From positions 1 to 24,496 of the IMG/VR virus record IMGVR_UViG_3300030389_001022: DNA of 24,496 bases. The stretch is one strand, 5' to 3'. This stretch comes from a virus. Positions 5,098 to 24,496 of this stretch are shown one piece after another; position 1 is the first letter of the stretch; every line of letters begins with the position of its first letter. Made by a program: the position numbers and the translations under genes. The notes beneath the pieces were generated by a model, which had not been told where the DNA came from, did no database searches, and was given only the letters and a program-made list of their open reading frames with translations.

Positions 5098-5102
5098 TAT
5101 CA

Positions 5103-6183: not shown

Positions 6184-6204
6184 TACTTCTTAAATTCAAT
6201 TTAT

Positions 6205-6237
6205 AGGGTATCTTATTATTAGATACCCTTTTTTTTT
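6205..6237 (+). terminator. Strong rho-independent terminator after the capsid gene
   Basis: AGGGTATCT (6205-6213) pairs perfectly with AGATACCCT (6221-6229) around a seven-base loop, and nine T residues follow. T7 has its only major phage-polymerase terminator (T-phi) in this same place, after gene 10. Partial read-through would set a high capsid-to-tail ratio. The position parallel is established knowledge; function here is inferred. Confidence 0.9.
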
Positions 6238-6240
6238 ATC

Positions 6241-6396: not shown

Positions 6397-6398
6397 TT

Positions 6399-6479
6399 AT
6401 GACTTATCAACCAACAAAAAAGAAAAAGAAAAAATCGACAAAGACAAGAAAACAGCTTAGTATTAAGAAAAAATATTAA
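6399..6479 (+). CDS. Very small Lys-rich peptide
   Basis: A 26-residue ORF starts two bases after the previous stop, and a further tiny gene starts two bases after its own. The product is poly-basic, MTYQPTKKKKKKSTKTRKQL in its first part, with a net charge far above zero, like nucleic-acid-binding tails. Such a short ORF could be chance, but the phasing with two neighbours and the absence of any other gene in the 395-base gap support it modestly. Confidence 0.45.
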   Translation: MTYQPTKKKKKKSTKTRKQLSIKKKY

Positions 6480-6481
6480 TC

Positions 6482-6622
6482 ATGAATCTTCTTAGAAACA
6501 AAATTACACAGCTTGAAACAAAAAAAGAAGCTGGCATGGCAACTAAAAAAGACTTAAAACAACTAGAAGAGTTTTATAAAATGCAGGGTAAAAAAAATAG
6601 AAAAAAACTTCAACTTAAATAA
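6482..6622 (+). CDS. Small basic coiled-coil-like protein
   Basis: A 46-residue ORF with predicted helices: NLLRNKITQLETKKEAGM and then TKKDLKQLEEFYKMQGKKN. The heptad-like Leu spacing suggests a short coiled coil, with a basic tail. It ends nine bases before the tail tubular A start. No family is recognised. It is more convincing than its smaller neighbour because of normal amino-acid composition and helical periodicity. Confidence 0.55.
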   Translation: MNLLRNKITQLETKKEAGMATKKDLKQLEEFYKMQGKKNRKKLQLK

Positions 6623-6631
6623 AATTTTATT

Positions 6632-7276
6632 ATGGGTATTGTAGCTGCAACAACTGAATTAGAAAGCATTAATATAATGCTTGCTTCTATAGGAGAAGCA
6701 CCAATACAAAGTCTTACTGGTAGTCCGTCTGAAAACACTTTTTATAATTCAACTTTATTACCAGTAGATGCTCGTTTTGCTCAACAAACTTTAAACGAAA
6801 TTAATAAAGCAGTACAAGGTGAAGGTTGGAGTTTTAATACTGAAATAGATGTTTCTTTAACAAGAGATTTAAATAAGCACGTTAACTTAAGTACTGATGT
6901 TTTAAGAGTAGATCCAAATATACATCAACACCCTTCAATAGATGCGATACAACGTGGCTTAAAAATGTATGACCGATTAAATAATAAATATGAATTTGAT
7001 AATGATTTGATATGTACCATTGTTTATTTTAGAGCTTTTAATGAAATACCAGAACAAGCAAGAAACTATATTACTATTAGAGCAGCTCGTGTTTTTGTAG
7101 ATAGAGTTGTTGGAGATCAAGGTCTTAGAGCTTATACACAACAAGATGAAGTAAGAGCTAGATCAGTTTTAATGGAGACTGATTTATGTAATGGAGATCA
7201 TAATATTCTTACAGGTGATCCTTCTCTTACAAGTGTTTTTGATACCTACTCCCCTGCAAATGTTCTTATTAGATAG
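6632..7276 (+). CDS. Tail tubular protein A (gatekeeper), T7 gp11-like
   Basis: This 214-residue protein is close to T7 gp11 (196). It forms the dodecameric ring between portal and nozzle. Family signs are the N-terminal ELESINIMLASIGEAPIQSL, the NEINKAVQGEGWSFNTE segment, and the C-terminal IPEQARNYITIRAARVFVDR followed by EVRARSVLMETD. It lies directly before the gp12-like gene, as in T7, with two bases between them. Confidence 0.94.
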   Translation: MGIVAATTELESINIMLASIGEAPIQSLTGSPSENTFYNSTLLPVDARFAQQTLNEINKAVQGEGWSFNTEIDVSLTRDLNKHVNLSTDVLRVDPNIHQHPSIDAIQRGLKMYDRLNNKYEFDNDLICTIVYFRAFNEIPEQARNYITIRAARVFVDRVVGDQGLRAYTQQDEVRARSVLMETDLCNGDHNILTGDPSLTSVFDTYSPANVLIR

Positions 7277-7278
7277 TC

Positions 7279-9762
7279 ATGGCTATTATTTCAAGGTCAA
7301 TTCCTACTTTATTGAGAGGAGTTTCACAAGCTTCTGATTCACAGAAGAGGCCAGATCATGCAGAAATACAAGACAACGCAGTAAGCGATCCTGTAATGGG
7401 ATTAAAAAAAAGATCTGGATCTCAATTTGTTTCTAATCTAATAGCAAGATCAGCAAACGAAGGGAGTATAGGCAATGCACACGTTATAACTATTGATAGA
7501 AGTGAGACTCAAAGAAATGTAGCAATTTTCACAACCAACAATGTAAGAGTATTTGATATAGATGGTACAGAAAAAACTGTTAACAAACCTGATGGAGTAA
7601 GTTATCTAACAACTACAGATCCAAGATCACAAATAAAAACAATTAGTATTGCTGATTTTACTTTTGTTGTTAACACGACTAAAACAATAGCAATGGACTC
7701 TACCTTATCGGCTGGAGCTATTACTCAAGCTATAGTTTTCTTTAACCAAGTATCAGATTCAACTGTTTATACAGTCACCGTTGATGGCAACTCTGTCACA
7801 AAAGACACTTCATCCGACAACCCTTTAAGTACTTCAACAGTAGCAACATCTATCAAATCAAGTTTAGATTCTGCTTTAACTGGTTTTACTATTGCACGAA
7901 ATGGACCTGTTCTTCATATTAAGAAAAACGATGGATCTAATTTTTCTATAGAAGCTAACGATACTCAAGGTAATACACAAATAACAGTTGTAAAAAATTC
8001 AGTACAACAGTTTACAGATTTGCCTACAGTTTCTCCCAATGGAATGGTCGTAGAAGTTTTAGGAGATGGAAAAGCAAATTTTGATAATTACTATGTAAAG
8101 TTTACAACCAATAATGGGGGAGCTTTTGAAGAAGGGCAATGGCAAGAAACAGTTGAAGCAGGTATTAAATTTAAATTTGATTACGATACCATGCCTCATG
8201 TCTTAGTAAGGCAAGCAGATGGTAATTTTAGATTTGCAAGAGTTGATGGAGATAGTTACACATTATCTGGCTTAACTTATACATTGCCTCAATGGGGTGA
8301 AAGGATAGCTGGTGACGAAATATCAGCTCAAGACCCTTCATTTGTTGGAGAGCAAATAAATAATGTATTTTTCTTTAGAAATAGACTTGGCTTTTTAGCA
8401 AAAGATAATGTAATTTTATCAGCAGTATCAGATTTCTTTAATTTTTTTCCTGAGAGTGTTTTAACAGTTGTTGATACAGATCCTATAGATGTAGCAGCAT
8501 CTCATACAAAAGTTGCAATTCTAAAAAATGCAATCAATATGGGAGAAAAATTAATTTTATTTTCAGATCAAACACAATTTAATCTTACGTCTTCTTCTGA
8601 TTCTTTAACACCAAAAAGTGCAAACGTAATTGTGACAACTGAATTTGAATCAAGTGACCAAGCAACTCCTGTAGGTGCTGGAAGTTCAATTTATTACGTC
8701 ACGCAAAAAGGTAATTTTAGTGGTGTGAGAGAATATATTTCACAGCAAGGTGTAGATGTAAAAGATGCTGCAAACATTACAATACACGTTCCTAGGTTGT
8801 TACCAAATGATATTTATAAAATGGCCGTATCAACTAATGAAGATTTTATAGTTTTATTAAGTGCTACGAATCCAAATATACTATATGTAAATAAATGGGT
8901 ATTTGGAGGACAAGGAGAAAAACTTTTAAATGCTTGGTTTACCTATACTTTTCCTAGTGAGCGTTCAATAAAAAATATAGATTTTATTGGTACTGATTTA
9001 TTTATGGTTATTGAAGATGATGTAGTTAATGGTGCTACTGAAATATGTTTAGAAAAAATACCTTTTGAATCAGATTTTAAAGAACCTAATTCAAACTATG
9101 AATTTTGTTTAGATCGTAAAATTACAGAAGCAACAGCAGGCGTTACTGTTACTTACAATTCAACAGATCTTTTTTCAACAATAACTTGCCCTTTTGATTT
9201 TGACAGGCAAATGAAAATTGTAGGTAGAGATTTAGCTTCTGGAGAAACAAGCACAATGGTTGATGTTTTTGGTCGTACTGTTGACGTAAAAGCAGGTAAA
9301 GTTTTTGAATCTGCTAATGGATTAAATACCACATCAAATACTATTACTACAAATGGAGATTTAAGAAATACAAAATTTATTATTGGTGAACCTTACGAAA
9401 TGCACTATAGATTTTCATCACAAAGAATGACAGAAGGATCTGGCAACCAACAAGGAGCCGAAATAGTAGGAGGCAGACTGCAAATAAAACATTTTTATTT
9501 AAAATTTGAAGATACAGGCTTTATAAAAGTAGAAGTAACTCCAGATAACAACATAACATCAACTCATATATTTACATCTACTTTAGGTACAGATTCACTA
9601 AGACAAGGTAGAGTCACTTTAGAGTCAGGTTCTTTTAAGGTTCCTATAATGAGCAGAGCTGATCGTGTAAAAATTGATATTAAAAATGATACTCATCTTC
9701 CAACTATTGTATCTAGTGCAGAGTACGAAGCGAGATTCCATTTAAGATCAAGACGTAGTTAA
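7279..9762 (+). CDS. Tail tubular protein B (nozzle), T7 gp12-like
   Basis: At 827 residues this matches T7 gp12 (794), the hexameric nozzle to which fibres attach. The N-terminus has SIPTLLRGVSQASDSQKRPD, the family's signature, followed by DNAVSDPVMGLKKRSGSQFV. The middle includes RNRLGFLAKDNVILSAVSDF with FFNFFPESV, a very conserved nozzle motif. The C-terminal part is beta-rich, ending EARFHLRSRRS. The stop overlaps the next ATG by one base. The segment around residues 150-230 looks like an inserted beta domain with many Thr and Ser. Confidence 0.95.
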   Translation: MAIISRSIPTLLRGVSQASDSQKRPDHAEIQDNAVSDPVMGLKKRSGSQFVSNLIARSANEGSIGNAHVITIDRSETQRNVAIFTTNNVRVFDIDGTEKTVNKPDGVSYLTTTDPRSQIKTISIADFTFVVNTTKTIAMDSTLSAGAITQAIVFFNQVSDSTVYTVTVDGNSVTKDTSSDNPLSTSTVATSIKSSLDSALTGFTIARNGPVLHIKKNDGSNFSIEANDTQGNTQITVVKNSVQQFTDLPTVSPNGMVVEVLGDGKANFDNYYVKFTTNNGGAFEEGQWQETVEAGIKFKFDYDTMPHVLVRQADGNFRFARVDGDSYTLSGLTYTLPQWGERIAGDEISAQDPSFVGEQINNVFFFRNRLGFLAKDNVILSAVSDFFNFFPESVLTVVDTDPIDVAASHTKVAILKNAINMGEKLILFSDQTQFNLTSSSDSLTPKSANVIVTTEFESSDQATPVGAGSSIYYVTQKGNFSGVREYISQQGVDVKDAANITIHVPRLLPNDIYKMAVSTNEDFIVLLSATNPNILYVNKWVFGGQGEKLLNAWFTYTFPSERSIKNIDFIGTDLFMVIEDDVVNGATEICLEKIPFESDFKEPNSNYEFCLDRKITEATAGVTVTYNSTDLFSTITCPFDFDRQMKIVGRDLASGETSTMVDVFGRTVDVKAGKVFESANGLNTTSNTITTNGDLRNTKFIIGEPYEMHYRFSSQRMTEGSGNQQGAEIVGGRLQIKHFYLKFEDTGFIKVEVTPDNNITSTHIFTSTLGTDSLRQGRVTLESGSFKVPIMSRADRVKIDIKNDTHLPTIVSSAEYEARFHLRSRRS

Positions 9763-10214
9763 TGGGGTATTTAAGAAAAGCAAATCTAAAAGATTTAAAT
9801 TATGTATGTGCAAACATGAGACAGATGGACAGAATGGAAGCTTTATATCAAACAGGATACGACCCCGAAGATGCTTTACGTCTTACATATTTATCTGGAG
9901 AAAAAGTTATGGCTATTGCTGGTGATAAAGATCAACCTATGGGGTTATGTGGAGTGTCTTACGAAGGCTGTATATGGATGCTTGCTACAGATGAATTGTT
10001 TGATAATAAAAAATATAGAATACAATTAATAAGACAAGGTAGAAATTGGGTAGACAATCTGTTGAAAAATCATAAATTACTATACAATATGGTGTATGCA
10101 GAGAATCATTCTGCTATAAAATGGTTAAGATGTTTAGGGTTTACATTTATCAACTATCATGCAGAATATGGACAAGAACGCAAACCATTTTATGAATTTA
10201 TAAGGATCGCTTAA
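9762..10214 (+). CDS. Internal virion protein A-like, T7 gp13-like (GNAT-fold)
   Basis: A 150-residue protein occupies the gene 13 position. T7 gp13 (138 residues) is needed for assembly of the internal core and has an acetyltransferase-like fold. Here RKANLKDLNYVCANM opens the fold, then PMGLCGVSYEGCIWMLATDE, and the end has YAENHSAIKWLRCLGFTFIN, the typical GNAT last-strand region (N...A.K.L..LGF). The acetyl-CoA P-loop (R/QxxGxG/A) is not obvious, so it is probably not catalytic. Its start overlaps the tail tubular B stop. Confidence 0.85.
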   Translation: MGYLRKANLKDLNYVCANMRQMDRMEALYQTGYDPEDALRLTYLSGEKVMAIAGDKDQPMGLCGVSYEGCIWMLATDELFDNKKYRIQLIRQGRNWVDNLLKNHKLLYNMVYAENHSAIKWLRCLGFTFINYHAEYGQERKPFYEFIRIA

Positions 10215-10727
10215 ATGTGTGCAATTTTACCAGCAATAGCAACAGGTCTTAGTTTATTTCAAGGTTTGGCGATGAGAAGTGCTGCACAAGATGTAGCAAA
10301 CCAAACTTATGAAACAGCATTACAAGATGTACGAGAAGGAGAAAGATCTAGAAGTATGCAAACTACTGCTGAAGGGGAAAGGTTAAAAGCTACAAAAGCA
10401 TCTGAGCGTCAAAAAGCACAACAAATTGCATTGCAAGGTAGAAGAGCTGGTGCTTCTCTTAAGGCTCGTGGTCAATTTGGTAATAATTTAAATTTATTAT
10501 TACGAGATGAAGGAATGAAAACTGGTAATAGAATTAATGCTATAAATCAATCTGTTGAATCTTTTGCAAGACAATCAGGTAGAAGAGTTCAAGGTATAGA
10601 TGCACAATTTAGACAACGTAGGAATGTTGCACAAAGTCGTGTAAATAAGGCTTACGCACAAGTTCCAGGTCTTACTTCAACATTACTGGGAGCAGCTTCA
10701 TCAAGTTTGCCATTTTTTGAGACTTAA
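10215..10727 (+). CDS. Internal virion protein B, T7 gp14-like
   Basis: A 170-residue protein, similar in size to T7 gp14 (196), starts on the base after the upstream stop. The N-terminus (AILPAIATGLSLFQGLA) is hydrophobic, and the rest is a long charged helix with Arg, Gln and Ala, containing RARGQFGNNLNLLLRDE-like sequence. In T7, gp14 is ejected first and forms the outer-membrane part of the DNA-translocation channel. The final TSTLLGAASSSLPFF segment is hydrophobic as well. Identification rests on order, length and the Ala/Arg helix with a hydrophobic N-terminus. Confidence 0.82.
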   Translation: MCAILPAIATGLSLFQGLAMRSAAQDVANQTYETALQDVREGERSRSMQTTAEGERLKATKASERQKAQQIALQGRRAGASLKARGQFGNNLNLLLRDEGMKTGNRINAINQSVESFARQSGRRVQGIDAQFRQRRNVAQSRVNKAYAQVPGLTSTLLGAASSSLPFFET

Positions 10728-10730
10728 ACT

Positions 10731-12650
10731 ATGACTGATTCTTTTACTGGTGGATTTCAAGTTTTTGACAATCCTGTAGATACCTATGTTCAAGCTCCTC
10801 AAGAAATACCTCAATCAGGAGCATTACAATTAGCGGAAATTTTAAAACAAGTAAATCCAAACTTACAAAAATTTATTGGTGCAAAAGTAGAAAAAAATAG
10901 AGAGACTGAAAGAATTGTTGGAAAAGTTGATTACTTAGCACAAAATAATGCTGCATATAAGAGTGTAGCTAAAGGGTTAAAAAATAAATTAGGTGACAGA
11001 TATGGTCGAATTATTCAAGGTAATTCATTATTTGTAAGACAAGGTATTCAAGAAGGTAAGGCTGAAAATATTGGTGCTGGATTATTACAAAAAATGAAAA
11101 ATAATTATAATACACATTCTTTTGAAAGTGGTCAAAGGTTAGTTGATGTTGATGTTGAATCTGATGCGTGGCAGAATTGGTTTCAGTCTGCTTTAGGTAA
11201 TGAAGTTGGTGATATTTCTAGTTTAGATGCTGATGTTTTTGAAAATAAATTAATGCCTAAAATTACAGCATTAAGTGAACAAATGTATGAATATGATTTA
11301 GAGCAAAAAGCAGAAGCAAATTTAGAACAAAATAGATCTTTAATTGCACCTAGAATAAAAAATGCTTTACCTAGTTTTGAAAAAGCATTGATATATTCTA
11401 ATAGTATTAATATAGAGGATATTGATAAATATAAATTAAATTTAGAAGAAGGTATTGCTTCTCTAAATAGTTTGACTGACAGTTTTGCTAAGAACGGTTA
11501 CTCAGGTAAAGATTTAAAAATTTTAAATAATGATTTATTAGATAACGTAATGGCAAGCGTAAGGTTATTTATTAATAATAATCCTACAGATCCTAATACA
11601 GCAGAAAAAGCAAAAGATCTTTTAGAATTATTTGGAGAACACGTTTCTTTAGGTGAAGGTCGTAAATTAAATCAACATCCTGATTGGTTAGAAAAATCAG
11701 GAGCTTTACGCACTGATGCAAATGCAATTATAAGTAATCAATTTACTGTTGATGAGAAATTAAAAGAACAAATAAAACAAAGATCTATTGATAAAGAATA
11801 TTTAGCTTTATTAGAAATTGACGATTACACTGAAAGACAAACCACTTTTCAAGAGCTTTATCGTAAATATCCTAAGTATAAAGATTATATTGATAATCAA
11901 GCTAGAAGTGATAATTTTGAAACTGAAAAAAAATTAAATAATTTTATTTTTGATATGTCTTTAAATTTATTTAGAAACGATCAAGAAATGATTACAGAAT
12001 TTATGTCAATAGAAAAAAGTAATTTAACTGATGATGATAAAATTATACAAAAATTAAGTAATACGAAAAAACTTTTAACAAACGCAAATACAATTCGAGA
12101 TTTAGTAACTCAAGGAATTGATAAAAATATGGATGATATACAGAAAATACTTAAACCCGATGCTGCAAGCTATAGCTATGAATCTCAAGCAATATTAGCT
12201 GGCTTTGAAATAGAACTGACAGAACGTGTGCCATTAATTATTGACGAAGTAATTAAGATGATTGGCGATAGAGATGAAATAAGACAAGATCCTAGAAAAT
12301 TAAACATTGTAGTTGCTGATGAAATTACAAGATTATTAAATCTTGAAAAATTAAAAATGCTTATGGCTATACCTAATGCAACAGGTTTGACAGGTTTAAA
12401 AACAAATTTAGTAATAACTGACCAAAAAGCAAAAGAGTTAGGTTTAAAAGATGACTTAGGTAACTTTATTGATAATCCATATCAAGATTATTTAAACGCA
12501 AACTTTCTAAACGCAGATAATATCCCTCCTAACCCTCTAGGGAATATAGACCCTAAAAAAGCTATAACTAATATAGGAGAAAATTCAACTAACTTTATAC
12601 CAACTGAAAAAATGAAAACTAATGCTGTATTACCAGACCAAACAAGGTAA
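10731..12650 (+). CDS. Internal virion protein C, T7 gp15-like
   Basis: A 639-residue, largely helical protein at the gene 15 position (T7 gp15 is 747). T7 gp15 and gp16 form the periplasmic and inner-membrane parts of the ejection channel. The N-terminus has ALQLAEILKQVNPNLQKFIG, then a QNNAAYKSVAKGLKNKLGD segment and SFESGQRLVDVDVESDAWQN, all matching the general pattern of podovirus gp15 homologues. Most of the rest is long Lys/Glu/Leu helices. It is shorter at the C-terminus, which is low-complexity with Asn and Pro. A 25-base gap separates it from the next gene. Confidence 0.8.
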   Translation: MTDSFTGGFQVFDNPVDTYVQAPQEIPQSGALQLAEILKQVNPNLQKFIGAKVEKNRETERIVGKVDYLAQNNAAYKSVAKGLKNKLGDRYGRIIQGNSLFVRQGIQEGKAENIGAGLLQKMKNNYNTHSFESGQRLVDVDVESDAWQNWFQSALGNEVGDISSLDADVFENKLMPKITALSEQMYEYDLEQKAEANLEQNRSLIAPRIKNALPSFEKALIYSNSINIEDIDKYKLNLEEGIASLNSLTDSFAKNGYSGKDLKILNNDLLDNVMASVRLFINNNPTDPNTAEKAKDLLELFGEHVSLGEGRKLNQHPDWLEKSGALRTDANAIISNQFTVDEKLKEQIKQRSIDKEYLALLEIDDYTERQTTFQELYRKYPKYKDYIDNQARSDNFETEKKLNNFIFDMSLNLFRNDQEMITEFMSIEKSNLTDDDKIIQKLSNTKKLLTNANTIRDLVTQGIDKNMDDIQKILKPDAASYSYESQAILAGFEIELTERVPLIIDEVIKMIGDRDEIRQDPRKLNIVVADEITRLLNLEKLKMLMAIPNATGLTGLKTNLVITDQKAKELGLKDDLGNFIDNPYQDYLNANFLNADNIPPNPLGNIDPKKAITNIGENSTNFIPTEKMKTNAVLPDQTR

Positions 12651-12675
12651 TATTGATTCATAAAGCAAAACAACA

Positions 12676-15600
12676 ATGACAAATTCCAACTTTAATGAAG
12701 AATCAGAAACAGATAAACTTTTTAAAAAGCTAGAAGAAGATTCTTTATTTCCAGAGTTTAATAAAAATTTAAATAAAGGATACGCTAGAACAATAGATTT
12801 TTTCGATAATTTAGTTGGTGGTGATAAAAGAAGTTTTGAAGAAATTTTAGAAAACAGATCAAAAATAAAAAATGAATTTAATACTAAAAGAGCGCAAAAT
12901 TTAAAAGATTTAAAAGACTCAGGCAAAGTAGATGAAATATATAGAGGTATAACTTCGGCTCCTTTTGCTTTTGTAAATGAGGTAGCTGATTTTGGAGTGG
13001 GTGCAAATAATTATTTGAGAGGAAAAGATTATTCAAGAACAGAAATTTTTAATCTTGAATCAATGGGATTGAAAGACGAAGGAGATGAGCAAAGTTTATA
13101 TTACACAATTCCACAAGCATTAACACAATTTTTATTACCTTATGGTGTTTTAAATAAAGCTGCTGGTGGAATCAAAGCTGCAAAAACAGCAAAAGCTGTA
13201 AAAGCTGTAAAAGGTATCAAGAGTGCAAAAGGTTTAAAAGCTGCTCAAGATGCTGCTAAAGCTGCTCAAAAAGCAAGAAAGTTTGGATTATCAAATCGTT
13301 ATGTAAGAAACTTTGCAGTTGGTACGGTAGCTGATTCAATTGCTTTTAATGCTTATGATGATAATTTATTTAATTTTATAAACGATCAAGTACCAAGTCT
13401 TAGAAACCCTGTTTTTAATTATTTAGAAGCAAAGACACCAGAAGAAGAAAGTTTTGCTGAAGCTAAATTAAAACAACTTTTAGTTGGTGGAATAATAGGT
13501 GAAACAATAGGTTTTGGTCTTGAAGTTGCAGCACCAGCAATAGGTAAAGTTGCAAAAAAAGTAACTAAACCTGTTGTAAAAAAAGGTGTGCAAGTAGCAA
13601 CTGATCTAGTAAAAGAAAGAGGTGAACTAGGTAAAGCTCTTGGAGAAGATGCTCAACGACTTTTTAATGCAACAAAAAATTTATTAGATGACATTAAATC
13701 AGATCCAAAAAGAAAGGCTAATGTTTTAAATAAAAAAATGGTTGATGACGCTGAAAGTTTAAGAGGTGTAACCAATATAGAACCTGAGATGGAAAACATA
13801 TTAAAAGAAAAAACTGAATTAAAATCCAGACCAGAACCAACAAAACAACCAACAGGTGGAGAAGATTTTAAGCCTGTAGACACTGAAAGAACTGCTGTTT
13901 TATTTGGACCTAGAAAGCAAGATATTGATTTTACTAGAAATTCATTAAATATGATGATGAAAACAGAACCAGAGAATTTAGATGTTTTACCTAACAGAAA
14001 ACTTTTAAGAATTGTCGAAGATCTTTCTTTACCAGAAGTTTTAAAAAAATTAGATGATGATGCTGCTACACTTTCAGATCCAGAAAGATTAGCAAGAATG
14101 TTAAAAGCTTTAAAATATCAATATAAATTAACACAAGAATTAACTGACGTAGTAAAACCTTTAGAGGATGCAATACTAGCAAATAACGCACCAGCTATTG
14201 ATGAGCTTTATAAATATATGGCTGACAGAATACAGCCATATTTTGCAATGCTCATTCCTAATAAAAAATTAAGTGCTGGACCTGCTAGGTTTTTACAAGC
14301 AAGAAGACTTATTGATGTTGAATTGCCTGATGAAGGCGGTTTAAAAGGTTTAGTTACTGACTCTATAAATGAACAAAAAGCACCAACAACAAAAGGACAA
14401 AAAAATAAAGTTAAAAGACCTACTGTTACACAGGAAGCAAGAGAATTTATAAAAGGATATGACGAAGAACAAGCATTGCCTTCTATAAAATTAATTGTAG
14501 AAGCTTTAGAACAAAAAGATCACGTTGAAATGATTAAGTTTCTTAGAGCTATTGGCATGGCAGAAAACAATCCTAAAGCTATAGGTGAACTACTAAGACC
14601 TATGACAAAAGCTCAAGGTTTTGCTAAAAATGTAAACGCTACTTTAAGAGTTACAAATGAAGTTGCTATAAATAGTGTCCTTACTGGATTTCCAACTCAT
14701 ATATTAAACGTACTTACTGCTAGTTTAAACGTGGGTCTTGGTCCTTATCAACTAATACAAGGCGCTCCTTTAGATAAAATTGCATACTTAAGGGCTGCAA
14801 AAGAATACATAACAATGTTTACACAACTTGGTAATACTTTAAAAATGGCAGGTAAAGCTTTCAAACAAGATAGAAATATATTAGATCCTTCAAGAGTATT
14901 TTATTATGACGTAGCTGATATGTATGCAATTAGAATGCCTGGTAATAGTCCAACTGCACAAGTAACAAATGCAGTTGGTCATACTGTTAGATTATCTAGA
15001 AGGTCAATGATCGCAGGTGATGAAATAGTAAAACAAACAGCATTTAGAAGCGTTCTTGCAGGTGATATATGGGAAGAAGGTTGGAGAGCAGGTAAACGAG
15101 GTGCTGAATTAAATAAATTTGTAAAAACAGAATTTGAAAGACATATAAAAATTTTAACTGAAGACTCTATTGATGCTTTTGAGGGAACTGCTGCACAAAA
15201 AGCTGAAGCTTTAAGAAAATATATAAGGGCTGTAGATTACGCAGCACAAAGAACTTTTACTAGAGAGTTAGGAACAGGATATTTTAAAAAGGCAACAAGG
15301 CCAGCAGCAAAGGTAATGCAACTACCAGCATTTAAATTAGTAAATTTCTTTGTAGGAACACCTGTAAACTTAGCAAAATCAAGTATTAGATTAGACCCTA
15401 TAACTGGTATAGGAAGTTATTTTCAAGATCCTAAAAAAATACCTGGATTGCCAAAGCTTATTAAAGAATATCAAGAGGAGTTAGCAAGTACAGATTGGGC
15501 AACAAGAACAAGAGCAGTAGGAGAAGCTAGAACAGGTGGTCAAATACTTGCAGCTTTTTCATTATTAGCACTAGCAGACGAAGACAATCCTAATCATCCT

Positions 15601-16832: not shown

Positions 16833-19800
16833 ATGGCTACTATTGAATACGGTGGTACTGGTTCTAACACTCCAGTAAGTACAGTTACAACTCATACAAG
16901 TAACGGATCAGCAGGTCCATACGCTATTAACTTTGAATATACTCATCCAACAGATATTGATGTTAGGGTTGGAGGTGTTTTTAAAACTCGGAATACTCAT
17001 TATACTCTTACAAGCACAACACAAATAACTTTTACTTCTGGAAATATACCTGCTAACGGAGCAATAATTACTTTTACTAGAAATACAAATATTTCAGTTC
17101 CACCAGTTAGTTTTGCAGATGGAGGGGTTTTACTTGCTGAAGATTTAAACGAAAGTGTTAACGTCTTACTTAATGGTATGCAGGAAATAGTTTTTGATTT
17201 TGTAAAAAGAGATGGATCTCAAGCTGTAACTGGCAACCTTGTTTTTGAAGGATCTACTGATGACGATCACGAAACTACTTTATCTATAACAAATCCTACA
17301 CAAGATAATACAATTACACTTCCTGATGTAAGCGGATCAGTTGTTACTACTGGAGATACAGGAACAGTTACTTCAGCAATGATAACTGACGGAACTATTG
17401 TTAATGCTGATGTAAATGCAAGTGCAGCTATAGATGGCAGCAAGGTAAATCCTAACTTTGGTGGACAAACAATAGCAACTACTGGCAGTTCAAATATTGG
17501 TGCTAATTTAGCAGTAACAGGAAACACTACTGTTGGTGGTACTTTAGGAGTTACAGGTGCATCTACTTTTACAGGTGCTATTGACGCAAATGGTGGTGCA
17601 AGTATTGATAATATTCAGATTGGAGTTACAGATGACAATGAAATAGATACTGCATCTGGCAATTTAACTATTGATTCTGCTGGCGGTACTACAACTATTG
17701 ATGATGCTTTAACGATTAGTGGTAATGCAACTGCACAAGGAACTTTAGGAGTAACAGGAAATACCACTGTAGGAGGAACTTTAGGAGTTACAGGTACTTC
17801 AACTTTAGCTGACGTTACAGGTGGAGCAGTTGTAACGTCTGGAACATCTACTAGCGACACTAAAGTTTATTCTGCTAAACGTGCAGGTGAAATATTTTAT
17901 GGAAAGAATACTGCTGAAGAAATACAATCAGGTGAAACCTGGACTTCTGCTGATAATAAGGTTGCTACTACTGCTGCTATAGATGCTCGTATTATTGACT
18001 TTGTAGATGATGTTGGTGGTTTTAATGCTATTGCAAACGAGACAAGTTTCCCTGCAACCAATCCACAAGGATCTGCTGGACAAGCTGCACTACTATCTAT
18101 AGCTGCTGTATCAACAACTCTTACTCCTAGCTCTAATACAATTACTATTGCTAACGGTGCTGGTACTGGTAATACAGTAACTATTAACAATGTTACTCCA
18201 GCCAGTATTCCTCAAGGTTTTGGTCTTATTGTTGAATCTACTAATACTTTACATACTTATAATTTTCATAGACTTGTTCCAAAAGCAACTGAAGTAACTA
18301 CTGTCGCAGGTAACGTAGCAAACATTAATACAGTTGCAGGTATTAGTGCAAACGTAACAACTGTTGCAGGTATATCAGCTAACGTCACTTCTGTTGCAGG
18401 TAACGCATCTAATATCAACTCAGCAGTCTCTAATGCTAGCAATATTAATTCTGCTGTAAGTAATGAATCTAATATTAACAGTGTTGTTTCTAACGCAACA
18501 AACATTAATACTGTTGCAGGTTCTATATCAAATGTAAATACTGTTGGTGGTTCTATAGCTAGTGTTAATACAGCATCTTCAAATATAAATTCAATAGCAA
18601 ATTTTGGAGATCAATACCAAGTTGCATCTTCTAACCCTTCAACAGATGGAGGTGGTAATTCACTAGCAGCAGGTGATCTATATTTCAATACAACAGCTAA
18701 TGAATTAAAAGTATATAACGGTTCTGCTTGGCAAGGTGGAGTCACTGCTAGTGGTAACTTTGCTTCTGTTACTGGTAATAACTTTACTGGAGATAATGTT
18801 TATTCTGATGGTGCTAAAGCGATTTTTGGAACAGGACAAGATTTAAAAATACATCATTCAAGCAATCAATCAACTATTGAAGAAGTAAACGGAAGTTTAA
18901 ATATCACATCAAACGGAGCTTTAAGTTTTAATCCAAGTGGATCTAATGTCGTTACTTTAGTAGGTAACGCAACTAAAGGATCAGGTCAAATAAAATTAAA
19001 CTGTGAATTAAATTCACATGGAGTTATTTTAAAAGGACCACCTCATAGTGCTGCTGCAAGTTACACATTAACTCTTCCTAGTAATATTGTTAATGGTCAG
19101 TTTTTAACTACTGATGCAAATGGAAATACGTCTTGGTCTGCTGTTGATTTAACTTCTCTAAGTGCAAGCAATTTAACTGGTGGTACTATCCCAGCTGCTA
19201 GATTTGGCACAGATACAATTGCTACAGGATCACTTGCTGCTGGAGCATTACCAACAGATGTAACAATAGCGGATGCAAATATATCTGGAAATCTAACGAT
19301 AGAATCAGCAGACATAGTAGATGGAACTATTGCAACAACAGATTTAGCTAATGATGCAGTTACTTTTGCAAAGATGCAGAATACTGTAAATGGAGTCAGA
19401 TTTTTAGGTAAGCATGATTCTGGAGGTGGAGAAATAGGAGAGATTACTGCTGCACAAGCTCGCACTATGCTTAACGTAGCTGATGGAGCAATTGCAGATT
19501 TAGTGTCTGACAGTTCTCCGCAGCTTGGCGGTGACTTAGACACTAACAGTCATAATATTTCTTTAGATGATGACCATAAAATAAAATTTGGAGATAGTGC
19601 AGACTTTACTATTGAACACACAGGTAATAATGATCATATAGAAAGTAGTGGTACTGGGTTTTTTCTTGATAGTGTTGGCGATCAAACTTTTAGAACTAAT
19701 AGTCACGCTACTATGGCTAGGTTTATTCCTGGAGGAGCCGTAAAATTATATAATAATGGCCTTGAAAAATTCCGCACGAATGCTGGTGGGGCACAGGTTT

Positions 19801-20552
19801 TCGGTGCTCTTTATGCAGGTGATGATACTAAACTTTACTTTGGTGATAGTAATGACCTGCAAATTTTTCACTCCAGTAATGAAAATATTATTGCAATAAA
19901 TACTGTAGGACAAGATTTATTCTTTAAAAGCTCTGCAAGTTCTTCACAAGATACTACAAGTTTTGTAGTTAGAACTGATGGAAGTATTACACATCCAGAC
20001 AACATACAAATGAAGTTTGGAAGTAGTGATGATTTAAAAATTTATCATGATGGAAACCATAGCTATATCTCAGATACTACTGGTACAGGTAATTTAAGAG
20101 TACAAACTAATAAACTTAAAATTGAAAATGCTGCTGGTACTCAAGATCAAGCTGTATTTACTGAAGGTGGGAGTGTAGAGCTCTATAACGCAAATACTAA
20201 AAGGTTAGAAACTTCAGGTACTGGCGTTAGCGTAACAGGTGCTTTAGTTGCTTCAGGTGATGTTACTGCTTTCTCTGATGCAAAGTTAAAAACAGAAATA
20301 TCTACTATTAATGATGCTCTTAGTACTGTTGGAAAGTTAAGAGGTGTATCTTATAAATGGTTGAAAGATAACAAGCCTTCTATTGGTGTTATTGCACAGG
20401 AAGTAGAAGAAGTAATACCAGAAGTTGTACATACAAACCAATTAGATGGTGAAGATGTTAAGTCAGTTGATTACGGAAAACTTGTAGGTGTTCTTATTGA
20501 AGCTATAAAAGAATTAAAAGCAGAAGTGGATGAACTTAAAGGAGGTAAATAA
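16833..20552 (+). CDS. Tail fibre protein, T7 gp17-like N-terminus with S74 chaperone C-terminus
   Basis: A 1239-residue fibre. Residues 1-130 match the T7 gp17 tail-binding domain (the SFADGGVLLAEDLNESVNVL segment parallels the T7 FTDGS..RAYDLN region). The shaft has repeats: GNTTVGGTLGVTG at 17520-17558 and 17757-17795; nine 10-residue repeats at 491-580; and four modules with FG..DL.I.H followed by S or N, between about 660 and 1075. The C-terminal 93 residues are a Peptidase S74 intramolecular chaperone: FSDAKLKTEI carries S1148 and K1153, the presumed catalytic dyad that cleaves the domain after trimer folding, followed by SYKW and GVIAQEVEEVIPE. Receptor-binding is inferred. Confidence 0.92.
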   Translation: MATIEYGGTGSNTPVSTVTTHTSNGSAGPYAINFEYTHPTDIDVRVGGVFKTRNTHYTLTSTTQITFTSGNIPANGAIITFTRNTNISVPPVSFADGGVLLAEDLNESVNVLLNGMQEIVFDFVKRDGSQAVTGNLVFEGSTDDDHETTLSITNPTQDNTITLPDVSGSVVTTGDTGTVTSAMITDGTIVNADVNASAAIDGSKVNPNFGGQTIATTGSSNIGANLAVTGNTTVGGTLGVTGASTFTGAIDANGGASIDNIQIGVTDDNEIDTASGNLTIDSAGGTTTIDDALTISGNATAQGTLGVTGNTTVGGTLGVTGTSTLADVTGGAVVTSGTSTSDTKVYSAKRAGEIFYGKNTAEEIQSGETWTSADNKVATTAAIDARIIDFVDDVGGFNAIANETSFPATNPQGSAGQAALLSIAAVSTTLTPSSNTITIANGAGTGNTVTINNVTPASIPQGFGLIVESTNTLHTYNFHRLVPKATEVTTVAGNVANINTVAGISANVTTVAGISANVTSVAGNASNINSAVSNASNINSAVSNESNINSVVSNATNINTVAGSISNVNTVGGSIASVNTASSNINSIANFGDQYQVASSNPSTDGGGNSLAAGDLYFNTTANELKVYNGSAWQGGVTASGNFASVTGNNFTGDNVYSDGAKAIFGTGQDLKIHHSSNQSTIEEVNGSLNITSNGALSFNPSGSNVVTLVGNATKGSGQIKLNCELNSHGVILKGPPHSAAASYTLTLPSNIVNGQFLTTDANGNTSWSAVDLTSLSASNLTGGTIPAARFGTDTIATGSLAAGALPTDVTIADANISGNLTIESADIVDGTIATTDLANDAVTFAKMQNTVNGVRFLGKHDSGGGEIGEITAAQARTMLNVADGAIADLVSDSSPQLGGDLDTNSHNISLDDDHKIKFGDSADFTIEHTGNNDHIESSGTGFFLDSVGDQTFRTNSHATMARFIPGGAVKLYNNGLEKFRTNAGGAQVFGALYAGDDTKLYFGDSNDLQIFHSSNENIIAINTVGQDLFFKSSASSSQDTTSFVVRTDGSITHPDNIQMKFGSSDDLKIYHDGNHSYISDTTGTGNLRVQTNKLKIENAAGTQDQAVFTEGGSVELYNANTKRLETSGTGVSVTGALVASGDVTAFSDAKLKTEISTINDALSTVGKLRGVSYKWLKDNKPSIGVIAQEVEEVIPEVVHTNQLDGEDVKSVDYGKLVGVLIEAIKELKAEVDELKGGK
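18303..18572 (+). repeat. Nine tandem 30-base (10-residue) repeats in the fibre gene
   Basis: Residues 491-580 consist of nine exact 10-residue units, such as VAGNVANINT, VAGISANVTT, AVSNASNINS and VGGSIASVNT. The consensus is V-A-G/S-N-x-S-N-I-N-S/T. It is a protein-level repeat with diverged DNA, typical of a trimeric fibre shaft. Repeat number could change by recombination. Confidence 0.85.
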
Positions 20553-21745
20553 TGGCAATCCAGAGTTCTGGAACAATTACTATACAAGATATAGTAGATG
20601 AATTTGGAGGGTCAACCCCTCACTCTTTGTCTGAATATTACAGAGATGGTGCTAATGTTCCTGGTAATAATACTAATGTTCCTACATCAGGAGCTATAGC
20701 TATAAGTGATTTTTATGGTGCAGTAAATGAAATAGTTATTGCTCTTACAAACGGAGCAACAAATTTAAACGCATCAACTTTATTTGGTTCAAACTATACC
20801 TCATCAGTACCTAAACGATTAACTGTTGCAAGTGGTGTAGAGATAGGAGCGACTAGCGGTAATAATGTTCTTACTATTCCGTCAGGGATGGCTGGCACTT
20901 TAATTATAGATAATGCTGGCACTATCTCAGGATATGGTGGACCTGTTGGTCAAACTGGAGGTAATGGCATACTAATTGAAGTTAATGGTGTAACTATAAA
21001 CAACTCTGGCACTATAAGAGCTGGAGGTGGTAGCGGTGGTACTGGAGGTACTGGAGGTACTGGAGGTAACGGATCAGCTACAACAGAAAGTAATTTTACA
21101 GGTAGCAGCATAGGAGGCTGTAGTTATATGAGTGGTAGCTTTCAGGGTCAACAATGGATAGGTACATGTGGTTCTGTTGGTAGTGGTTATTTTAACGGTA
21201 ATCAAGCATGTTCGAGTGCTTTTGGTGGTCAATATACAGGTGCTGGAGGTAGTGGTAACCAAGGTTATACAAGGGGTCAAGCTTCAGGTGGTTCTAGTAC
21301 TTATGGAACTTATAACTGGGGTACAACAATATCTAGTCCTAAATATTGGCGTATTCTTGGAGGATGGAAATTTACAAACCAAGGCTGTAGTATCGTAACA
21401 ACATCATCAACTAGCGGTGGTGCTGGTGGTGCTGGTGGTGCTGGTGGTGTAGGACAAGGATATAACCAATCTGCTGGTTCTGGATCTGGAGGATCTGGAG
21501 GAAGTGCTGGTGGTACTAATGCTGGTACTGGAGGATCTGGAGGTACTGGTGGAACAGGAGGAGCATATGGTGCTACTGGATCTACTGGTGCAACAGGTTC
21601 TTCTGGAGCTAACGGTAATGCTTCTAACGGATCTAGTGGATCTAGTGGAAGTGCTGGCTCTGCTGCTGGATATTATGCCTATTACGTTGGTAGTGTAAGT
21701 GCGACTATAAACAACACAGGAACACTAACAGGTCAAGCACCATAA
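20552..21745 (+). CDS. Glycine-rich tail adhesin-like protein
   Basis: A 397-residue protein, coupled to the fibre stop and preceded by a strong AAGGAGG site. Residues 1-57 are a module (MAIQSSGTITIQDI, ending AIAISDFYGA) that I know as the N-terminal segment of marine phage tail proteins. Residues 60-157 look like a beta domain. Glycine-rich runs at about 158-175 and 287-371 have GG/GGT/GGA repeats, and 337-357 forms seven Gly-X-Y triplets, a short collagen-like stretch. Such runs form polyglycine-II bundles in the S16 gp38 adhesin. Four cysteines lie at 190, 206, 220 and 279. The protein probably sits at the fibre tip; this is inferred. Confidence 0.75.
   Translation: MAIQSSGTITIQDIVDEFGGSTPHSLSEYYRDGANVPGNNTNVPTSGAIAISDFYGAVNEIVIALTNGATNLNASTLFGSNYTSSVPKRLTVASGVEIGATSGNNVLTIPSGMAGTLIIDNAGTISGYGGPVGQTGGNGILIEVNGVTINNSGTIRAGGGSGGTGGTGGTGGNGSATTESNFTGSSIGGCSYMSGSFQGQQWIGTCGSVGSGYFNGNQACSSAFGGQYTGAGGSGNQGYTRGQASGGSSTYGTYNWGTTISSPKYWRILGGWKFTNQGCSIVTTSSTSGGAGGAGGAGGVGQGYNQSAGSGSGGSGGSAGGTNAGTGGSGGTGGTGGAYGATGSTGATGSSGANGNASNGSSGSSGSAGSAAGYYAYYVGSVSATINNTGTLTGQAP
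21410..21664 (+). repeat. Glycine-codon repeat tract with collagen-like end
   Basis: Low-complexity GGT/GGA-rich DNA encodes residues 287-371 of the adhesin-like protein; the collagen-like triplets lie at 21560-21622. The repeat composition opens several frames on both strands, which explains the spurious ORFs there. Confidence 0.8.
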
Positions 21746-22401
21746 TGCTATTCAAAATATATGATTTTTTAGATAAGGATGTATGTAAAGAATTAGTTCA
21801 AAAACTACAAACTTGTGACCTTTGGCAAGACGGTAAACTCACTACAGGGGAACATCTAAAAAAAAGAAAAAGTAATAATGAATTAGTTACTGGTGATTTA
21901 TATAAAGAAATTACAAATGCTGTTCTAGGTACATTTTATGGATCAGATGCAGGGCAGAATATTTATTCTGATACTTTTTTTAATTTTGTTACTCCACCCA
22001 TGATTAATAAATACTATGTTGATGAAGGGTATGGATGGCATTTTGATGAAACAATTATGCCAAATCAAGATGGTCATTTAACAAGAATGGATTATTCTTT
22101 TACTGTATTTTTAAATGATAATTATAAAGGAGGTGAATTAGAAATTGAAAATGAGACAATAAAAGGTAAACAAGGTCAAATTGTTATCTATGATAATAAA
22201 TTAAGACATAGAGTTACAAAGATTACTGAAGGAACTCGATACGCTTGTATTGGCTGGCTTTCATCTTTGATAGAAGATGTAGAAGTTAGAAATAGATTAG
22301 GACAAAATCAAAAACTCTTACGATCATGTGAAAATCCTGATGATGATACTTTTATAGCATTACAAAAAACACATATGCTTTTACTTAAAAAATTCTCATA
22401 G
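21745..22401 (+). CDS. 2-oxoglutarate/Fe(II)-dependent oxygenase (PKHD/YbiX-type)
   Basis: A 218-residue dioxygenase, close in length to YbiX-type proteins. The iron triad is visible: H99 and D101 (GWHFDET) and H155 (LRHRVTKI), with R165 (GTRYACIG) as the 2-oxoglutarate salt-bridge residue. A conserved TRMDYSFTVFLNDNYKGGEL block lies between. Such enzymes hydroxylate proteins or small molecules and are common in marine cyanophages, where substrates are mostly unknown. Its start overlaps the stop of the glycine-rich adhesin, suggesting co-expression with the fibre genes. The target here is not known. Confidence 0.9.
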   Translation: MLFKIYDFLDKDVCKELVQKLQTCDLWQDGKLTTGEHLKKRKSNNELVTGDLYKEITNAVLGTFYGSDAGQNIYSDTFFNFVTPPMINKYYVDEGYGWHFDETIMPNQDGHLTRMDYSFTVFLNDNYKGGELEIENETIKGKQGQIVIYDNKLRHRVTKITEGTRYACIGWLSSLIEDVEVRNRLGQNQKLLRSCENPDDDTFIALQKTHMLLLKKFS

Positions 22402-22450
22402 AATGTTTTTTACATAAAAAATGATATTATTAAATTAAATCAGTATTTAC

Positions 22451-22882
22451 ATGAAATATAAAATAACAGAACTATCTACAAGTTCTATGAAAGTAGAATA
22501 CAACGATAGTTCTCACGCTGTCATACCTATTGAAAAAACCTATGATACAAATCTGTTAAAAGATTTAATTAGTAGATACCACAATGTAGATAAGTCATTT
22601 GAAAAAATTGAAGATATTCCTCTTGCTTTAAACTATGAAGGTGATACAGAAGAAGATTTAACAACACCAAATGAGTTTACATATAAAGATATGAGGTTAG
22701 CAGAATATCCTAATGTCGGAGATCAATTAGGAGCTTTAAATAAAGCTAGACTAGGTGATAATTCAGAAATTACAAAAATTGATGAAGTTATAGCAGACGT
22801 AAAAGCCAAATATCCTAAAGACAATAAAAAATATACTGATGCTGATATGGCTGGAGCTGTTGATTGGACAGGTTTTGATTAA
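22451..22882 (+). CDS. Tail fibre assembly-like protein (uncertain)
   Basis: A 143-residue acidic protein. The N-terminal 45 residues form a beta-like module (KVEYNDSSHAVIPIE), also seen in small marine phage proteins. The middle has AEYPNVGDQLGALNKARLGD, followed by a DEVIADVKAKYPKD helix. YPxxGDQLxxL motifs occur in phage tail and tail-assembly proteins, but the function is unknown. A 49-base AT-rich gap precedes it, and it overlaps the next gene by 8 or 44 bases depending on the start. The context suggests a role in fibre assembly; confidence is low. Confidence 0.7.
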   Translation: MKYKITELSTSSMKVEYNDSSHAVIPIEKTYDTNLLKDLISRYHNVDKSFEKIEDIPLALNYEGDTEEDLTTPNEFTYKDMRLAEYPNVGDQLGALNKARLGDNSEITKIDEVIADVKAKYPKDNKKYTDADMAGAVDWTGFD

Positions 22883-23402
22883 ACTTGTTGACAGTCAAGC
22901 ATTTGGAAAGGGAAATCATGGATCGACAAAAGTCGCTTTGAAAGCTATTGAGGGTACAAATTTTAAAAATAAAAAAGTTTTAGATATTGGTACTGGTACA
23001 GGGATATTAGCTATTAAAGCAAAATTGCTAGGTGCAAAAGAAATTCATTGTTTAGATCCAAGCGGTATTGCTACAAGAACTACTAAAGAAAATTTTCTAT
23101 TAAACTTTGGTGATTTAGATAATATTAAAATTTATACAGGGTTTTTCCAGAATTTATATAAAGATAATATTTTTAAGGACTTTGACATTGTTATCTCAAA
23201 CATAATAGCTGATGTGCATAAATATCATTTGACTAATATAAATAAAACTCTTATACCAAATGGAATTGTAATTTTAAGTGGAATAGGAGTTAACGAAGAA
23301 GCAGACTTAATTAAACCATTTAAATTAAATGACTTTAAAATAGTAGAAAGATTTATAGATGATTTATGGTTAAGTTTAAAAATACAAAAAAATGACACCT
23401 AA
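22839..23402 (+). CDS. PrmA-like SAM-dependent methyltransferase (catalytic domain only)
   Basis: A class I methyltransferase of 187 residues (or 175). Motif I is KVLDIGTGTGILAIKAKLLG (46-65), and D73 in HCLDPS ends strand 2. DIVISNIIADV (116-126) matches the D-x-V-x-A-N-I-L motif of ribosomal L11 methyltransferase PrmA, and GKGNHGST (23-30) the GTGTHxTT segment. NGIVILSGI (141-149) is also PrmA-like. PrmA proper is about 290 residues; its N-terminal L11-binding domain is missing. The ATG at 22839 overlaps the gene before by 44 bases and gives an odd hydrophobic N-terminus; a TTG at 22875 (8-base overlap) is a likelier start. The substrate is unknown. Confidence 0.85.
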   Translation: MLIWLELLIGQVLIKLVDSQAFGKGNHGSTKVALKAIEGTNFKNKKVLDIGTGTGILAIKAKLLGAKEIHCLDPSGIATRTTKENFLLNFGDLDNIKIYTGFFQNLYKDNIFKDFDIVISNIIADVHKYHLTNINKTLIPNGIVILSGIGVNEEADLIKPFKLNDFKIVERFIDDLWLSLKIQKNDT

Positions 23403-23529
23403 AGAAAAATTTTCATTATGTCAATCCTGTGAATTTCTTAGGCGTAACGCAACTTGCAAAAAATGTAATTGTTTTATGCCAGTTAAAGTACGTTTGCCTT
23501 TAGTGGCCTGTCCTGTTAATAAATGGTAA
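23392..23529 (+). CDS. Small cysteine-rich probable zinc-binding protein
   Basis: A 45-residue protein with SLCQSCEFLR (C10, C13) and CKKCNCFMPVK (C22, C25, C27), then a last ACPVNKW (C40). This CxxC...CxxCxCFMxxK...CP..KW pattern is a very common tiny phage protein, likely with a zinc ribbon. The function is not known to me. It starts inside the end of the methyltransferase gene (11-base overlap) and stops three bases before the next ATG. Confidence 0.8.
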   Translation: MTPKEKFSLCQSCEFLRRNATCKKCNCFMPVKVRLPLVACPVNKW

Positions 23530-23532
23530 GTT

Positions 23533-24036
23533 ATGGATTACCCAGAAATAAATTTACCAGATACAGATTATATTCTCGTACCACCTAAAACAATTTTTTA
23601 TCCACCTGTGGCAGAGGAACCTTATTTAGATCCAATTCTTTTACCTTCTCTGGAACAAGTTGAGTCGGGTCTGGGAGGTCAGGAATCTTCTTCTGAAGAA
23701 AAAACAACATCTGCAAAGGAGGAAGAGTTACAGCTAACACCAGAAACAATACCGCAGAACCAGCTAGTACCCAAAGAAACTTTATCAACTGAAGAACCTG
23801 TAGCTACGTTTAATATACCATTTTTTAATTATGATTTTCCAGTACCTGCCCCAGAGGTGATTGCATCGAGTATTATCGCAGCAGGTACTGCAAGCGTAGC
23901 GAGCGTAATAGGGGGCATTGCTATGCAATCTGTTTTAGATGTTATTAAGAAAACATTTAAGAAAATCTTTACTAAAATTCTTAAAAAAGAAGTCGCAAAT
24001 GTGAAAGAAAAGATAGATAATAATAAAGGTAGCTAG
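23533..24036 (+). CDS. Single-pass membrane protein with Pro/Glu-rich N-terminus
   Basis: A 167-residue protein. Residues 1-107 are acidic and proline-rich (DYPEINLPDTDYILVPP at the start). A hydrophobic Ala/Ile/Ser segment at about 109-133 (VIASSIIAAGTASVASVIGG) is a probable membrane span, followed by a basic amphipathic helix (KKTFKKIFTKILKK). Similar proteins with YPxIxLPD starts occur in marine cyanophages, without known function. A holin-like or membrane-anchoring role is possible but unproven: holins usually lack such a long disordered N-terminus. It converges with the gene on the opposite strand. Confidence 0.78.
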   Translation: MDYPEINLPDTDYILVPPKTIFYPPVAEEPYLDPILLPSLEQVESGLGGQESSSEEKTTSAKEEELQLTPETIPQNQLVPKETLSTEEPVATFNIPFFNYDFPVPAPEVIASSIIAAGTASVASVIGGIAMQSVLDVIKKTFKKIFTKILKKEVANVKEKIDNNKGS

Positions 24037-24075
24037 AGTACACATACACCCGTAATGTGGCGTCTAACTAGCTAC
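24029..24075. terminator. Convergent inverted repeat, possible bidirectional terminator
   Basis: GTAGCTAG (24029-24036) pairs with CTAGCTAC (24068-24075), and inside it CACAT (24041-24045) pairs with ATGTG (24055-24059). Both convergent genes end inside the stem arms (stop codons at 24034-24036 and 24072-24074). A T-rich stretch (TTTTT at 24081-24085) follows on the plus strand. A two-way terminator is the simplest reading. Confidence 0.5.
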
Positions 24076-24496
24076 TTAAATTTTTCTGCGTTGGCTTTTA
24101 CATAACTTCGTATATTAATTACATCGCTACAAATATATGCGAACTTAGACTTAGGATTTATCATGTAGCCTGATGCGTGAAGCTGTCCGCACTTCAAGAT
24201 ACGAACTAGCTGCTTATCATGCACTTGTTTGTCTAGTTCTTCTTTGGCTAAGTCTAGCTTTACTTTTGCTAATTCAGAACACGTTTCATTATTAGTTCCA
24301 AGTGGTATCATCCAACTTACCTGGACTCCCCATCCCTCATTAATGCTATATGTTTCTTCTCCCTGTGCATCATTACCTGTATAAAAAGGAGTTACAGCCA
24401 TAGTAGGTTGACTACAAATCAAGTTTCCAAACTGTAGCTTACCTGTCATTCCATTATTAACATTCATATTCTGGTTGATAATACTAGAATTACCAA
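24072..24496 (-). CDS. Partial conserved cyanophage-type protein, opposite strand, 5' end beyond window
   Basis: The only gene on the minus strand. From an internal ATG at 24467 it gives 131 residues, but the frame stays open to the window end (upstream residues GNSSIINQN), so the true start lies outside. The N-terminal Asn-rich part and the segment GWGVQVSWMIPLG look like a beta-rich region; the C-terminal part is a helix (LAKVKLDLAKEELDKQVHDK) with C107 and C127 nearby (numbered from 24467). I know similar proteins, ending in a cysteine-pair helix, from marine cyanophages, without function. Convergence with the upstream block suggests a transcription boundary. Confidence 0.7.
   Translation of the reverse strand, partial: GNSSIINQNMNVNNGMTGKLQFGNLICSQPTMAVTPFYTGNDAQGEETYSINEGWGVQVSWMIPLGTNNETCSELAKVKLDLAKEELDKQVHDKQLVRILKCGQLHASGYMINPKSKFAYICSDVINIRSYVKANAEKFK

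Follow-up and report, generated by a model that had tools for sequence, protein, structure and literature searches.

The phage adhesin gp38 has been described as a glycine lattice combined with hypervariable receptor loops (PMC12892980). Marine phages also encode many 2-oxoglutarate (2OG)-Fe(II) oxygenases, usually called auxiliary metabolic genes, whose substrate is not known; those of cyanophages are treated as auxiliary metabolic genes of uncertain function, with roles in nitrogen or energy metabolism or in DNA repair having been suggested (PMC3037559, PMC9602691). In discussing viral prolyl 4-hydroxylase, one account mentions collagen in viral tail fibres and terms its use cryptic (PMC9301287); according to another, collagen prolyl hydroxylation is absent from viruses and bacteria (PMC3368898). 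Here we describe a 24,496-base virus record (IMG/VR IMGVR_UViG_3300030389_001022; "the window" denotes this whole stretch) in which the gene for a glycine-rich, gp38-like adhesin is followed by genes for a PKHD-type 2OG-Fe(II) oxygenase, a 143-amino-acid (aa) partner protein and a PrmA-derived methyltransferase. Among the matches listed from the open-licence literature, no paper dealt with oxygenase-modified phage adhesins, and none by its title with phage PrmA. We propose, giving it slightly less than an even chance, that this region serves cyanopodoviruses as an exchangeable host-recognition cassette, one that supplies the predicted receptor-binding tip together with enzymes to finish it: the oxygenase, perhaps together with the methyltransferase, would modify the adhesin tip or the fibre during assembly.

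The initial annotation of this DNA recognised four open reading frames (ORFs), all of which were recovered where it had placed them (Table 1), and took the glycine-rich product for an adhesin, an assignment borne out by fold. The structural model had a mean predicted local distance difference test score (pLDDT) of 73.6, with 192 residues at or above 90 and the variable loops below 50. Foldseek matched it to gp38 of phage PP01 (9v85_C, E 2.9e-7) and of phage S16 (6f45_D, E 1.4e-4). When low-confidence stretches were removed, VIA ranked the same two proteins first (Z 18.8 against 9v85_A of PP01, root-mean-square deviation 3.0 over 185 aligned residues; Z 18.5 against 6f45_D of S16, deviation 2.7 over 187), and the third-ranked row reached only Z 9.2. 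The model has the polyglycine II (PGII)-sandwich/beta-helix fold of gp38. The protein, with 102 glycines among its 397 residues, is made up of an N-terminal domain (residues 1-57) without a gp38 match, a short beta part, Gly-rich (PGII-type) segments and hypervariable loops at about 175-285; the gp38 matches begin at residue 49-58, and residues 1-57 are poorly modelled. A hypervariable region between Gly-rich motifs is present in an alignment of 26 sequences (A1). It is also visible at the DNA level when the window is compared with a second copy of the cassette (contig L086, described below), where identity falls to 0.64-0.73 at 21000-21449, against 0.83-0.95 in the preceding 450 bases, is 0.89 in the 150 bases after 21449 and is 0.69 again at 21600-21749. 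The receptor-loop motif S-P-K-(Y/W)-W at 262-266 is kept in both cassettes, two sequences that carry no statistical weight. By its modelled fold the glycine-rich protein is a predicted receptor-binding tip, one that probably recognises the host.

The PKHD-type oxygenase identified in the initial annotation, and its start-coupling to the adhesin, were likewise upheld. In both cassettes the final A of the adhesin stop codon is also the first base of the oxygenase ATG (TAATG), and the oxygenase aligns with the structures of the PKHD hydroxylases Sbal_3634 (residues 2-194, E 3.6e-18) and PiuC (26-218, E 3e-16). The iron site H99-x-D101 with the distal His155 (LRHR from 153), together with the 2OG-binding Arg165 (GTRY from 163), is kept in the oxygenases of the window and of contig L003. 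The curated equivalog model for PiuC/YbiX, NF003974, gave 137.1 bits, just below its cut-off of 143. Judged by sequence, the oxygenase is a member of the PKHD hydroxylase-like family and a putative hydroxylase. In a phylogenetic tree, a node with support 0.972 unites it with picocyanobacterial PiuC, with the PiuC-type proteins of phages S-RSM4, Sf-CH1b and S-RIM32, and with those from two podovirus-like contigs. The node placing it among the phage PiuC-type proteins had a support of 0.114, so that single and repeated capture of these oxygenases are not separable. Of 169 matching records we examined four named cyanomyoviruses. In three of them a tail-collar/fibre gene is followed, at a distance of less than 2 kb and after some intervening genes, by a PiuC-type oxygenase. 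As a separate observation, the cyanomyovirus Sf-CH1b (L344) carries, at 6382-12782, six genes annotated as 2OG-oxygenase or prolyl hydroxylase-like in the 6.4 kb after a tail-collar gene, with others interspersed.

A search for the N-terminal part of the adhesin gave 63 viral loci, and oxygenases were sought in 47 of these contigs at the Pfam cut-offs for PF13640 and PF13759. An oxygenase was present in 17 of the 47 (PF13640 in 9, PF13759 in 8), a count that includes this cassette twice and several evident duplicates. Sixteen of the 18 oxygenase matches lay within 3 kb of the adhesin and the other two at 4.5 and 5.2 kb. Among relatives of the window capsid (46 of 80, three of which have the adhesin N-terminus in whole or in part) an oxygenase was detected in two (0 and 2 for the two families), both at 27.6 bits against a cut-off of 27. 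The difference (Fisher p 1.8e-4) is indicative, since duplicates were kept and the two sets are not matched for lineage or for the length of their contigs. After dereplication, the nearest counted oxygenase was within 3 kb of the adhesin in 8 of 9 contigs of at least 14 kb (2.49 expected, p 1.2e-4) and within 1.5 kb in 5 of the 9 (1.34 expected, p 0.005); for contigs of at least 25 kb the 3-kb figure was 3 of 4 (0.70 expected, p 0.018). In this placement test the G039 oxygenase is on the other strand, the G005 and G010 oxygenases are related, and the nearer of two was used for G010. The arrangement varies: the oxygenase directly follows the adhesin in the window and L100, follows the partner gene in L093 and L099, and in L108 precedes the adhesin and overlaps its start. 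Approached from the adhesin side, therefore, the co-occurrence that the initial annotation had put forward as a check exceeds chance for the oxygenase-adhesin pair.

The same region could alternatively be an insertion hot spot for auxiliary metabolic cargo, with the oxygenase tuning iron or 2OG metabolism. Such a role would suit the classification of cyanophage 2OG oxygenases as auxiliary metabolic genes (PMC3037559, PMC9602691) and the name PiuC, given as deriving from iron-uptake loci. A general hot spot, however, might be expected to be more mixed than what we found: in the 31 of 37 downstream protein clusters that were scanned, four match oxygenases, one PrmA and three mobile-type endonucleases, and no further metabolic enzyme was recognised. 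We consider metabolic cargo rather unlikely.

A PrmA-like methyltransferase one gene beyond the oxygenase had also been proposed. Its identity holds, and its start was refined. The ORF is open from an ATG at 22839, inside the preceding gene, but an alignment of four sequences shows similarity only from about 22875 (TTG) onwards, where the catalytic domain of PrmA starts. The PF06325 match spans profile positions 129-295 of 296, and the DNA upstream is the preceding gene. The S-adenosylmethionine (SAM)-binding catalytic domain is thus present (structure 3grz, E 1.7e-16, in addition to Pfam) and the PrmA N-terminal domain is absent; the PrmA equivalog model TIGR00406 gave 97.1 bits against a cut-off of 183.15, and the PHROG library yielded no convincing family for the protein (best E 0.078). 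Its closest cellular relative among the matches listed is the full-length PrmA of Prochlorococcus AG-388-A01, at 40% identity. A tree of 102 rows (100 cellular PrmA proteins of at least 257 aa, one gene twice, and two phage rows of 175 aa) grouped it with the AG-388-A01 PrmA, present twice, and one other sequence of the same family (support 0.977); the enclosing node holds 23 rows (support 0.948), and the 14 listed are phage and family rows. The methyltransferase is, on this evidence, a PrmA derivative that groups with picocyanobacterial PrmA and lacks the N-terminal part. PrmA matches occurred in 20 records of the phage collection; the three examined were not counted as phage PrmA, one of them, Acinetobacter phage MD-2021a (L085), being flanked by bacterial genes and the other two being unannotated. 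The MD-2021a record has gidA, prmA and fis within 3.4 kb and is probably bacterial sequence.

The N-terminal domain of PrmA binds ribosomal protein L11 and directs the enzyme to it, and its loss argues against L11 as the substrate of the window enzyme. This bears on a second alternative, namely that the two enzymes control host translation late in infection, the oxygenase hydroxylating a host translation protein and the PrmA domain methylating L11 or another ribosomal protein. PKHD-fold relatives do hydroxylate EF-Tu or uS12, 31 of the 41 genomes examined from the host-like family encode an oxygenase homologue, and the placement of the methyltransferase beside picocyanobacterial PrmA points the same way. 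Against this, the methyltransferase is without the N-terminal domain, both enzyme genes sit in the adhesin gene cluster and move with it, and oxygenases recur with the adhesin where PrmA was not found. Host-directed translation control therefore seems unlikely to us. Action of the two enzymes on phage DNA or in counter-defence is more improbable still: PADLOC returned domain-level matches (2OG, 52.8 bits, 1.3e-14; mad2, 50.5 bits, 3.6e-14), but these span common domain folds only and score below the PiuC-type (137.1 bits) and PrmA (120.3 bits) matches.

The cassette as a whole is mobile. The last ~180 aa of the fibre (from 20016) belong to the block that the window and L086 have in common. Beyond it, blastn gave one further stretch, within the fibre gene (18216-18803, 72%); across residues 6-650 the two fibre proteins share about 42% identity, and apart from the fibre and its antisense ORF, none of the L086 ORFs of 90 aa or more matched the window outside the block. 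L086 covers 10,658 of the 14,403 bases of its contig. For a 400-aa part of the gene preceding its fibre, the nearest counterparts are the internal virion proteins of P-GSP1 (35%) and P-SSP7 (29%), which assigns the contig to a cyanopodovirus of another lineage. The block is 82% identical in an otherwise largely dissimilar cyanopodovirus contig and thus moved as one cassette. L003 duplicates the L086 contig, being identical to it over 4251 bases, so the distinct cassettes number two. Between them the four genes are 78-93% identical in amino acids, and the ratio of nonsynonymous to synonymous substitution (dN/dS) is low for the adhesin, oxygenase, partner protein and methyltransferase alike (0.33, 0.20, 0.08 and 0.20 by NG86; 0.30, 0.26, 0.13 and 0.31 by LWL85), which argues that they are not chance ORFs. 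The cassette genes, both enzymes included, are under purifying selection. Mobility raises a further possibility, that the enzymes are passengers linked to an adhesin spreading by recombination. The occurrence of all four genes in only two distinct cassettes would fit such hitch-hiking; purifying selection on both enzymes, and the presence of two oxygenase families at several positions around the adhesin, make it very unlikely.

Table 1. Features of the proposed host-recognition region, in window coordinates
Feature	Coordinates	Strand	Evidence
T7-type tail fibre with C-terminal S74 intramolecular chaperone	16833..20552	+	PF03906 2.9e-11; PF13884 2.1e-15
Mobile block common to the window and L086 6450-9936	20016..23528	+	82% DNA identity, blastn and tblastn
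gp38-like adhesin, 397 aa	20552..21745	+	Fold match; phrog_10745 1e-20
PiuC/YbiX-type PKHD 2OG-Fe(II) oxygenase	21745..22401	+	PF13640 E 3.8e-14
143-aa protein, frequent adhesin partner	22451..22882	+	Function suggested by position
PrmA-derived methyltransferase, catalytic domain only	22875..23402	+	PF06325 E 1.5e-34; SAM motif LDIGTGTG
45-aa Cys-rich ORF resembling DUF6171, final gene of block	23392..23529	+	23.0 bits, under Pfam cut-off 27

The window virus has relatives among the viruses of marine cyanobacteria. Its capsid and that of Prochlorococcus phage P-SCSP2 share 82% identity, and the window DNA is similar to that clade at 4377-10220 (P-SCSP2) and 23552-24496 (P-SCSP1 phages, 81%), making Prochlorococcus or a relative the presumed host; the term marine is extended to the IMG/VR contigs from related isolates. 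Between its fibre gene and the gene resembling window 23533-24036, P-SCSP2 has three other genes, which indicates that the window carries a replaced cassette. P-SCSP2 is an MPP-C cyanopodovirus, a clade described as being without DNA polymerase or auxiliary metabolic genes (PMC9860041). As an observation in its own right, this MPP-C-like record has two host-like enzyme genes, whereas the isolates of the clade are reported without auxiliary metabolic genes in that source.

Collagen-like hydroxylation of the adhesin, which the initial annotation had called partly collagen-like, was considered and rejected. The protein is partly collagen-like in the limited sense that its longest Gly-X-Y run, 11 units from residue 325, was reached just once when residues 151-397 were shuffled 5000 times (p 0.0002). 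The run contains no proline, however (the prolines of the adhesin are at 23, 37, 44, 87, 110, 131, 263 and 397), and longer runs of 15-21 units occur in 11 adhesin relatives from contigs without an oxygenase above cut-off. Adhesins with and without a nearby oxygenase, compared by eye, showed no evident difference in composition.

Taken together, the most economical explanation is that the oxygenase modifies the tip or the fibre, which we regard as about evenly balanced. In this scheme the start-coupled oxygenase, drawing on 2OG, O2 and Fe(II), would hydroxylate residues in the newly synthesised adhesin (the receptor-binding loops being the simplest case) or in the fibre end. The reaction would take place ahead of assembly or in the course of it, and would alter receptor binding or stability. 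The methyltransferase, as a host PrmA catalytic domain minus the part that directs it to L11, might add N-methyl groups to a protein of the cassette, either on lysines or at an N-terminus; this is a weaker proposition than the one for the oxygenase.

Several observations weigh against these proposals. Thirty of the 47 adhesin contigs, many of them short, have no oxygenase above cut-off, so adhesin folding is probably independent of modification. In the converse test, based on 129 oxygenase ORFs in 56 distinct loci retrieved by oxygenase, a Gly-rich ORF within two genes was not enriched (6/129 vs 46/468 other ORFs), and of the 11 loci with enough flank to score direction, 5 had such an ORF upstream and none had one downstream. 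In Syn33, the fourth cyanomyovirus record, the matched oxygenase lies between uvsY and uvsW, away from the fibre genes. Lysines and prolines are few in the adhesin (3 and 8, respectively). The methyltransferase link comes from the two distinct cassettes that hold all four genes, and the enzyme-rich spot may only be a landing site for cargo. The initial annotation is therefore partly supported. Its idea of fibre modification gains from the oxygenase counts (17/47 adhesin contigs vs 2/46 capsid relatives), and support for the methyltransferase is thin; co-occurrence of the four genes as a general rule is not supported, as a PF06325 match was present in just 2 of 50 records, each of them carrying this cassette, and the oxygenase-adhesin pairing seen from the adhesin side is not matched by enrichment from the oxygenase side.

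We are more tentative about a wider generalisation, which we think less likely than not: marine phages may generally tailor gp38-like adhesins post-translationally through adjacent 2OG-Fe(II) oxygenases of at least two families, repeatedly recruited, with a host PrmA domain here additionally retargeted from ribosome to virion by loss of its N-terminal domain. If the link to the tip is true, a subset of marine phage oxygenases gains a testable role, and host range can hinge on protein chemistry that is invisible in the adhesin sequence.

The partner gene follows the adhesin in 20 of 48 other rows, several of which end directly after the adhesin. The model of its product (pLDDT 85.3, predicted template modelling score 0.47) found no match in the PDB at E <=0.001; from its position the protein is possibly an assembly factor or chaperone. 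Like the Cys-rich ORF that ends the block, a DUF6171-like ORF lies beside enzymes at L101 9006-9191, above the Pfam cut-off there and below it in the window. A protein of 130-150 aa with the motif DG-(T/N/R)-HR recurs downstream of the partner gene (L088 2338-2754, in a cluster of 11 ORFs; L099 2815-3261; L110 8684-9085), and its L088 member has no Pfam match.

The window oxygenase shares long structural alignments, the HxD...H site and the Arg with the PiuC/YbiX PKHD hydroxylase (PRK05467); unlike it, it scores below the curated cut-off and lies in an adhesin gene cluster rather than an iron-uptake locus. The 2OG-Fe(II) oxygenases of T4-like cyanophages include PiuC-type members that group with the window enzyme and host PiuC (0.972) and follow tail genes in three of four records; they are described as auxiliary metabolic genes, and another subfamily is located elsewhere (Syn33). 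PrmA, the ribosomal protein L11 methyltransferase, is like the window enzyme in catalytic domain and tree placement and differs by its N-terminal domain. The substrates of the prolyl 4-hydroxylase of chlorella virus PBCV-1 are proline-rich, unlike the proline-free Gly-X-Y run of the window. What that system has in common with our proposal is a virus-encoded hydroxylase tied to hydroxyproline in viral proteins (PMC9301287). The closest relative of the tip itself is gp38 of T2/S16/PP01-type phages, with which the window adhesin shares its fold, Gly-rich segments around hypervariable loops and a gene directly after the fibre gene; it differs in that residues 1-57 have no match and it belongs to a relative of short-tailed cyanophages. 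In the window, enzyme genes follow it.

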